From contig NJBH01000022.1 of the NCBI GenBank assembly GCA_005223125.1, positions 1 to 61,298 of the forward strand: a stretch of DNA of 61,298 nucleotides. Direction: 5' to 3'. The notes under the pieces are model-generated. The model saw only the letters and a list, made by a program, of their open reading frames with translations. It was not told where the DNA came from and searched no databases. A program made the position numbers and the translations under genes. The first letter of the stretch is position 1. Every line of letters starts with the position of its first letter. The DNA comes from Promethearchaeota archaeon Loki_b32 (GTDB lineage Archaea > Asgardarchaeota > Lokiarchaeia > Sigyniarchaeales > SOKP01). Below are positions 25,554 to 46,514 of the stretch, one piece after another.

Positions 25554-25876
25554 TCTTATTGTAAAACACCTAATACCAAATTTTGTCGATATTTATTCTA
25601 TTCAAATTATAAAAATACACTGATTTAATTTTTTGCATTATCTAATTAAATTCTTGAAAATGCTGTTTTAAGGCAAAATAATATAAGTATAATACACTAT
25701 AAGGTTTTAATCTCGACTTTCTTATATATTTCTGCGTTTTTTATCCATTAAACTAAAAAAAAGAAATAAAACCTTTTTATATAATTATAACCTTTTAATA
25801 TTGTTATTTATGTAATATATTTTTAAACAATTTTCAAAAATAAGAATAAAATTACAAAAGAAGGTTGAAAATTAAA
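25554..25876. other. AT-rich divergent intergenic region
   Basis: 323 bases between a minus-strand hypothetical gene and the SCP2 gene. There is no open frame of note. TTTTTATATAA around 25775-25785 and TAATATATTTTTA around 25814-25826 are plausible archaeal TATA boxes for the SCP2 gene. GAAGG before ATG 25877 is its ribosome binding site. Confidence 0.35.
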
Positions 25877-26311
25877 ATGGTTGACGAATCATTATTAAAA
25901 GATATGAAGGCTGCTCAAGATGCTGGTGCAGCTTCTGCTTCACCAGAAGTTATGATGAAGGTTTTTAGTTTCATCAAGCAGATCTCTACAGAGAACGAAG
26001 ATCTTAAAGAAGAATTAGAGGATATGGACATAGCCATTCAGATGGTCATCACGGATGCAGATAAGAAGCATTGGTTAACAGTAAAAGAAGGTGCTTTAGA
26101 ATTTGGTGAAGGAAATGTGGATAATCCTTCATTCACGATGTCTTCGACGCTCGAAGTTGGTGCAGGAATACTTATGGGAGAGGTGGATGCTACTTCTGCA
26201 TATATGGCTGGCGATATTACAGTAGAAGGTAATCTACAGGACGCGATGGCCTTTCAAGAGATTATTGAGCTCGCACTCGAAGCATATGAAGATTTAATAG
26301 AAGATTTATAA
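25877..26311 (+). CDS. SCP2 sterol-carrier-like protein
   Basis: About 144 residues in the SCP2 fold, a small domain that binds lipids or other hydrophobic ligands in a tunnel. Visible landmarks are an N-terminal helix region, MVITDADKKHWLTVKEGALEFGEG (paired strands), FTMSSTLEVGAGILMGEVDATSAYMAGDITVEGNL and a closing amphipathic helix. The GDITVEGNL motif is the classic end of the SCP2 domain. ATG 25877 is chosen over an in-frame TTG at 25865 because GAAGG lies about ten bases before the ATG and overlaps the TTG. Codons are more GC-rich than in the neighbours, as in a well-expressed gene. A paralogue lies just beyond the tRNA-Asp gene. Confidence 0.85.
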   Translation: MVDESLLKDMKAAQDAGAASASPEVMMKVFSFIKQISTENEDLKEELEDMDIAIQMVITDADKKHWLTVKEGALEFGEGNVDNPSFTMSSTLEVGAGILMGEVDATSAYMAGDITVEGNLQDAMAFQEIIELALEAYEDLIEDL

Positions 26312-26470
26312 ATTTAACCTCTCTATTCACTATATTCTTTATTACAATCTCTTTTTTTTTATTAATTTAGTTTATTTAAACCTATTCAGTTTTAATTCTG
26401 TCTAATTATATTAGATCTAGATTTTCTAAAAAAGATTTTACTTTATAAGAGTAATATTAATTTAGAATGG

Positions 26471-26545
26471 CGCGGCTAGCGGGATTTGAACCCGCGTCGC
26501 AGGAGTGACAGTCCCGAATGCTAGACCGGGCTACACTATAGCCGC
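26471..26545 (-). tRNA. tRNA-Asp (GUC)
   Basis: A complete 75-base cloverleaf on the minus strand with no intron. Acceptor GCGGCTA pairs with TAGCCGC and the discriminator is G. Anticodon stem CGGGA/TCCTG encloses loop CTGTCAC with anticodon GTC (26507-26509). The T arm is GCGGG-TTCAAAT-CCCGC. CCA is not encoded. Extra GC pairs beyond the acceptor may help processing. Confidence 0.93.
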
Positions 26546-26755: not shown

Positions 26756-27211
26756 GTGTCAAGTCTATATACTATGCTTAATTCGAAGAGTTTCAATTCT
26801 GTCATCCATGATTTGGAGAACCATGATGGGGAATTTATCGCGGTCTTAGATAGAATCATAAAGTTTATTGTGAATAGATTCAAAAATATTGAAGAACTAC
26901 GCGAGGAGATACTAGAGTATGATGATACATACCAAATTATCATTACAGATATGAACTTTAACTTTTGGTTAAAATTATCTAATGGTTCGATTATTTACAA
27001 AAAAGGAGTTAATAGAAGCGCGTCATTTAGAGTTATATATACTAAGGATATAATGGTTAAAATTCTAAAACGTGAGATGTATGGAACCGATGCTTTTATG
27101 AAAGGAATTATAAAGGTTGATGGAGATCTTTCACAAGGTTTACGATTTATAAAATTATTTCGCTTGTTTATAAAATACTTAAATAATGGTTTTAAAAAGG
27201 AAAATATCTAA
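26756..27211 (+). CDS. Second SCP2-like protein
   Basis: 151-residue paralogue of the SCP2 protein upstream. The shared frame is IEELREEILEYDDTYQIIITDMNFNFWLKLSNGSIIYKKG, then SFRVIYTKDIMVKILKREMYGTDAFMKGIIKVDGDLSQGL and a basic helical tail. The ligand-tunnel residues differ strongly from the first copy, and the tail is basic (FIKYLNNGFKKENI) rather than acidic, suggesting membrane contact or another ligand. The start is GTG 26756 or ATG 26774; both keep the domain intact. The tRNA-Asp gene on the other strand separates the two paralogues. Confidence 0.7.
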   Translation: MSSLYTMLNSKSFNSVIHDLENHDGEFIAVLDRIIKFIVNRFKNIEELREEILEYDDTYQIIITDMNFNFWLKLSNGSIIYKKGVNRSASFRVIYTKDIMVKILKREMYGTDAFMKGIIKVDGDLSQGLRFIKLFRLFIKYLNNGFKKENI

Positions 27212-27327: not shown

Positions 27328-27353
27328 GGGCTTGTAATCTAGTCTGGATAGGT
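27328..27353 (+). pseudogene. Orphan tRNA 5' fragment (acceptor strand plus D arm)
   Basis: GGGCTTG-TA-ATCT-loop-AGGT matches the first 21 or so bases of the tRNA-Arg gene 192 bases downstream, with two transitions, and forms a D arm (ATCT with AGGT). No anticodon stem or T arm follows. Instead there is a small hairpin (TTCT-gctct-AGAA) and a T-rich run. It is most simply a decayed partial duplication. A separately transcribed 5' half of a split tRNA is a less likely alternative. Confidence 0.5.
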
Positions 27354-27519
27354 AGAAAATTCTGCTCTAGAAAGGGTTCTTATTTTTTTTATTTATTTAT
27401 TTGTGATCTCGAATTTAAAGCAAATATTTTTTTGAAATAATAGATGATAATATTATAACTTGAATTATTTTAGTTTTTAAGAAATGCATTTAAGAAAATA
27501 TCAAATTTAGACTAATTAA

Positions 27520-27653
27520 GGGCCTGTAATCTAGCCTGGATTTCTATTTCCAATACGGAAAGTACCAGTAAGGGTGCCCGGCTTCGGACAAATTCGGCGG
27601 TTTTCGGCGAGCTTCGTTTTGGGATGTCGCAGGTTCAAATCCTGCCTGGCCCA
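27520..27653 (+). tRNA. tRNA-Arg (UCG) with two introns
   Basis: 134-base gene; removing two insertions of about 30 bases each gives a normal 74-base tRNA. Acceptor GGGCCTG/CTGGCCC has one T-T mismatch; discriminator A. T arm is GCAGG-TTCAAAT-CCTGC, variable loop ATGTC. The anticodon stem is CCCGG (27577-27581) pairing with TTGGG across an intron; anticodon TCG is at 27584-27586 followed by G37. The first insertion lies in the D loop, between AGCCTGGAT and GGGT, and contains the hairpin TTTCC-aatac-GGAAA flanked by CTGG/CCAG. The second is in the anticodon loop. CCA is not encoded. Splice points are estimated. Confidence 0.72.
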
Positions 27654-27785
27654 CTCTTAAGACTTTAAAATAATCTAGTTCTAGATTATAATCTCTTTTT
27701 AGTTTTTCTAGTCAAAAATCCACACGATCAGCCCATTCTATAAGTTTTAGAATAAAAATCGATTTAAGCTATTTTTAGTAATAAT

Positions 27786-46412: not shown

Positions 46413-46514
46413 TGCGCGATCCGGGAATTGAAATCCCGAACAACCCCGAAATGGAGCGGCTACCCGGGTCATCGGCTTGGAAGGCCGAGATCCTAACCAC
46501 TAGACTAATCGCGC
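46413..46514 (-). tRNA. tRNA-Gly (UCC) with T-arm intron
   Basis: 102-base gene on the minus strand. Acceptor GCGCGAT pairs with ATCGCGC, discriminator A. The D arm is GTCT-AGTGGTTA-GGAT. Anticodon arm TCGGC-CTTCCAA-GCCGA is uninterrupted, with anticodon TCC at 46479-46481. The T arm reads CCGGG, then about 30 extra bases, then TTCAATT-CCCGG. Removing the insertion restores a normal 7-base T loop and a tRNA of about 72 bases. CCA is not encoded. Confidence 0.85.

Follow-up and report, generated by a model that had tools for sequence, protein, structure and literature searches.

A Lokiarchaeal tRNA-Arg(UCG) gene with two probable archaeal BHB-type introns and a likely history of gene replacement

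In Thermoproteales, it is established that a single tRNA can hold several bulge-helix-bulge (BHB)-type introns at non-canonical positions, among which a review lists 20/21, 45/46, and 59/60 (PMC4090602). Multiple non-canonical tRNA introns have already been published for the Asgard archaea Atabeyarchaeia and Freyarchaeia (PMC11291895), and the layout of the Caldiarchaeum tRNA-Thr(GGU) locus has been explained by mobile element integration (PMC3293823). Here, we present an analysis of the tRNA-Arg(UCG) gene at 27520-27653 (+) of a 61,298-nt stretch of DNA from a Lokiarchaeon (the window), which is interrupted by two small inserts. We conclude, with a probability of about 0.86, that this tRNA-Arg(UCG) gene is functional and single-copy and carries two introns of the archaeal BHB type. 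It belongs to an already known kind, the multi-intron archaeal tRNAs, and its interest lies in the likely history of replacement at the locus. The original prediction had described such introns as known mainly from Thermoproteota; the host, however, is a Lokiarchaeon, and other Asgard cases are already in print (PMC11291895).

Rfam recognized a tRNA at 27520-27653 on the forward strand with 30.7 bits (gathering score, 29), while ARAGORN did not report a gene there; the inserts disrupt the fit to the Rfam model, which is why its score barely passes the cutoff. Using a script that ran through paired excisions and gave every resulting sequence a cloverleaf score, we found in this unbiased search that the best score was 48 with two excisions and 40 for any single excision. 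Among the ties at 48, intron 2 was identical throughout and the D-loop cut alone shifted; the top-ranked pair, which had the best splice-motif score, removes 29 and 30 nt (Table 1) and leaves a 75-nt tRNA with the anticodon TCG (GGGCCTG TA ATCT AGCCTGGATA GGGT G CCCGG CTTCGGA CTGGG ATGTC GCAGG TTCAAAT CCTGC CTGGCCC A). Thereby, the two inserts of about 30 nt each that had been proposed for the D loop and the anticodon loop were recovered, as was the proposed tRNA-Arg(UCG) identity, and orthologues with empty sites agree with the inserts. Except for a few substitutions, the 75-nt exon sequence is that of intronless orthologues (e.g., L037/L060 and L074), and ARAGORN called L037 and L074 as tRNA-Arg(TCG). 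Because intronless and one-intron Lokiarchaeota orthologues show the empty sites, we regard both inserts as introns.

Table 1. Features of the tRNA-Arg(UCG) locus in window coordinates
Feature	Position	Strand	Remarks
Truncated tRNA-Arg copy (positions 1-25), interrupted at 20a/21 by a 23-nt insert of its own (27350-27372) and followed by TCTTATTTTTTTT	27328..27377	+	
Gapless block, promoter region and gene, 241 bp	27418..27658	+	About 90% identical to G006
Exon 1, tRNA positions 1-20a	27520..27541	+	Conserved in orthologues with and without introns
Intron 1, 29 nt, D loop, 20a/21	27542..27570	+	Central helix CTGG 27536-27539 / CCAG 27565-27568; bulges AT↓T, TA↓A (↓, cut)
Exon 2, positions 21-39, anticodon TCG	27571..27589	+	Identical to empty-site orthologue sequence
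Intron 2, 30 nt, 39/40 by parsimony (38/39 possible), relaxed BHB	27590..27619	+	Absent in intronless orthologues (CTTCGGACTGGG)
Exon 3, positions 40-73	27620..27653	+	Rfam match, cloverleaf search

Intron 1 lies in a motif of the form CTGG AT↓T ... CCAG TA↓A, in which all four central pairs form and the cuts fall two bases past each strand of the 4-bp central helix, within 3-nt bulges; the outer and inner helices are imperfect. Its excision restores a standard tRNA that is intact in relatives. An insert at 20a/21 is present in ten relatives, namely, G006, seven genomes with the D-loop insert alone at 29-30 nt (G007, G019, G025, G030, G031, G033, and G035), and two in which it measures 18 nt (G005 and G017). 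Thus, the insert ranges from 18 to 30 nt across genes, and the 3' flank retains its ability to pair with CTGG, with 4/4 pairs to the exon CTGG in 7 of the 11 genes and 3/4 in the other four. The probability of full 4/4 pairing for a random insert is 0.014, a value that we did not multiply across the eleven genes, as these copies are homologous and non-independent; the pairing across the 11 related copies supports a motif that has been kept. The CTGG/CCAG helix and the TTTCC/GGAAA hairpin named in the original prediction both form when the D-loop segment is folded by itself in silico, and the BHB-like splice site suggested there is borne out by the 4/4 motif. Because this segment is no more stable than its shuffles (z -0.9), the evidence for intron 1 is comparative, not thermodynamic.

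Intron 2 was found in only one other genome, G006, where it is identical at 28 of 30 positions. Based on exon parsimony, it is placed at 39/40, since CTTCGGAC↓AAATTCGG...CGTTT↓TGGG gives back the intronless sequence exactly; excision restores a standard tRNA, as in relatives. With a symmetric two-nucleotide cutting rule, the 39/40 site has three of four central pairs, with a T-T mismatch in the central helix. The minimum free energy fold is the same in the window and G006: a CGGA/TTCG helix forms immediately inside the anticodon stem, and between the two a T-G pair of the inner helix changes to T-A; the isolated intron folds are no more stable than shuffles. The predicted motif is a relaxed BHB at best, and because it is relaxed, the exact cut is not settled. 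Two further placements were ruled out: the canonical 37/38 site sets CTTC opposite CTTC, and at 35/36 (GGCT/AGCT, 4 pairs) one of the pairs is broken in G006 and position 37 of the product would be a T. This intron, at the foot of the anticodon loop, thus probably lies off the canonical 37/38 site, a point that the original prediction had missed.

When the gene served as a DNA query, 41 of 58 related genomes yielded matches, with other tRNAs among the weaker ones. The tRNA-Arg gene is also carried by named Lokiarchaeota records. Five genomes (G012, G003, G009, G002, and G036) and record L074 read straight through both sites, and G006 has both inserts. As judged by eye, other relatives carry introns elsewhere: G014 at 37/38, with a perfect CTTC/GAAG helix, G018, G015, G001, G029, and the record pair L056/L071 at 45/46 (TGGG/CCCA or a near match), L068 at 59/60 (TTCG/CGAA), and G016 and G010 at 17/17a (CTAG/CTAG), with G010 having a 45/46 intron as well. 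Altogether, six intron sites are used in this one tRNA across related Lokiarchaeota (17/17a, 20a/21, 37/38, 39/40, 45/46, and 59/60). Thus, the intron content of the tRNA-Arg gene changes quickly, and the six sites form a natural series in which the gain and loss of Asgard tRNA introns can be followed. Inserts also occur in other tRNA genes: the window tRNA-Gly(UCC) at 46413-46514 (-) has a 30-nt T-arm insert near 53/54 with a 4/4 CCCG/CGGG motif; the host tRNA-Thr(CGU), tRNA-Val(CAC), tRNA-Ala(CGC), and tRNA-Lys(UUU) (L013, L015, L007, and L011) each have an insert of ~30 nt, apparently off 37/38; and a 138-nt host tRNA, probably tRNA-Met(CAU), at L018 1501-1638 needs two excisions, the cut sites of which are not settled.

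The host genome has two splicing endonuclease genes at PF01974 and encodes an RtcB ligase (E 1e-170). The best solved relative of the 202-aa alpha subunit is 3p1z_B (E 2.4e-35), and K60 of the subunit (SKPR) aligns with Lys44 (EKPR) of that chain, which, from the residue number, we take to be the A. pernix endonuclease. The 205-aa beta subunit has an Asp in place of the catalytic His. As judged from the genes, catalytic and structural subunits are separate and the specific-loop lysine is present. Relaxed-BHB cleavage has been assigned to alpha-beta type endonucleases and linked to A. pernix Lys44, which is reported to be needed for broad specificity (PMC6379350); the two host genes fit this type, which cuts relaxed motifs. 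We infer that both introns are spliced by host enzymes: the two-subunit endonuclease would cut the pre-tRNA at both introns, at CTGG AT↓T and CCAG TA↓A for the D-loop intron and through the relaxed motif for intron 2, and RtcB would join the exons to a 75-nt tRNA reading CGA codons. Among about 10,000 codons, 62 are CGA.

A truncated tRNA-Arg copy, the stump, lies 192 bp upstream of the intact gene and ends in a T-rich tail. Its upstream region (157 aligned nt) is 83-84% identical to the upstream regions of G001/G015 and only 49% identical to that of G006. The similarity of the 241-bp block to G006 spans promoter, exons, and introns and stops abruptly at both ends; G014 and G016 have upstream sequences similar to that of the block. 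Neither a recombinase nor a viral match turned up at the locus. When viral contigs were scanned for the 5' half of the tRNA, the only two matches were due to chance and had no tRNA close by, so that no viral attachment site was found. In the RtcB tree, the host (G000) is sister to G001 (100/99) and G006 falls in another group (99/97), and forcing G000 and G006 together is rejected (p-AU 8.4e-39). Neighbouring proteins point the same way: the adjacent SCP2 protein is 82.7% identical to that of G001 and 71.0% to that of G006; the SCP2 tree places the window with the G001/G015 clade, and forcing G000 with G006 is not rejected (p 0.094). A V-ATPase marker, which has paralogues, was used for identity only. 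Two SCP2-like small proteins of the window (25865-26311 and 26756-27211, +) flank a tRNA-Asp without insert (26468-26545, -), which lies before an SCP2 gene and on the other strand than tRNA-Arg, and homologues of both proteins occur near tRNA-Arg in many Lokiarchaeota. G006 (L067) has a tRNA-Asp with a T-loop insert directly upstream of tRNA-Arg and in the same direction.

The best and simplest reading of the block and the stump appears to be that a gene from another lineage replaced the resident one. From these sequence comparisons, we consider it likely that the gene was acquired with its promoter from a G006-like Lokiarchaeon; on recombining into the resident gene for tRNA-Arg, this unit would have truncated it, and the native promoter with positions 1-25 would remain upstream as the stump. 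The last exon may be native, as the junction on the right falls at some point within the conserved 3' exon. More broadly, we favor, with somewhat less assurance, the idea that the two-intron gene moved between Lokiarchaeota as a minimal promoter-plus-gene unit that displaced the resident gene by internal recombination, so that introns would spread by whole-gene swaps with 5' stumps as footprints. The original prediction looks to have missed this likely horizontal acquisition beside a truncated native copy.

This acquisition has to be weighed against descent from ancient tandem duplicates with different introns, of which G006 kept one, most relatives the other, and the window both, one of them truncated; it would require no horizontal transfer and bears only on where the gene came from, which leaves the two-intron reading untouched. 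The two copies do stand in tandem, and the block-like upstream sequences of G014 and G016 imply two promoter types in the genus. However, non-coding promoter and intron sequence is about 90% identical to that of G006, whereas the closest promoters of the host's own clade reach only 83-84%, although G006 is far more distant by RtcB, and stump and intact gene together were seen in no other genome searched. We therefore regard tandem duplication as unlikely. With the host assembly still a draft of 71 contigs and its contamination estimated at 4.6%, a local misassembly at the locus is possible; it would not readily explain the stump.

Decay of the gene itself, with the inserts as junk and the acceptor mismatch as a mark of drift, could draw on the low Rfam score, the ARAGORN miss, and the truncated copy upstream. 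However, the exons match those of functional orthologues, the insert sites are also filled in relatives, with splice motifs, and this is the sole UCG gene found: searches of the host genome with the mature sequence and a 5' pattern found no second one, nor did a narrow pattern, which also missed the present gene. The T-T mismatch, at 6:67, is real, but the suggestion that it indicates drift does not stand; it is also present in G006, G014, G015, and G002, in otherwise intact genes, and is therefore a shared variant and not decay. Thus, a pseudogene is very unlikely. We give hardly any credence to an unspliced D-loop insert that would stay in the mature tRNA for good as a long extension of the D arm, the anticodon intron alone being removed. 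The insert is able to fold as a hairpin; however, orthologues without it are normal, its length varies while the CTGG-complementary flank stays, and the cloverleaf score drops to 40 if one intron alone is removed. A functional gene from which both introns are spliced remains our preferred reading.

Like the Thermoproteales multi-intron tRNAs, e.g., Pyrobaculum islandicum tRNA-Pro(UGG) (PMC4090602), the tRNA-Arg gene has several BHB-type introns at non-canonical sites; it differs from them in phylum, in that a single tRNA has introns at six sites that alternate among related Lokiarchaeota, and in the placement of the second intron at 39/40 or 38/39. The Atabeyarchaeia and Freyarchaeia cases (PMC11291895) come from other Asgard classes, whereas here one gene is compared across species of Lokiarchaeota. 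With its nameable donor-like lineage, sharp block ends, and native stump, the locus suggests one route by which introns may move, namely, arrival with a whole gene. It is also a second case resembling the Caldiarchaeum tRNA-Thr(GGU) locus (PMC3293823), in which an intact two-intron gene likewise lies downstream of a 5' fragment of another version, comprising positions 1-27 there and 1-25 here. In Caldiarchaeum, gene and fragment are 1.8 kb apart with a putative recombinase gene between them, whereas here the gap is about 140 bp with no recombinase, and the donor-like lineage can be named.
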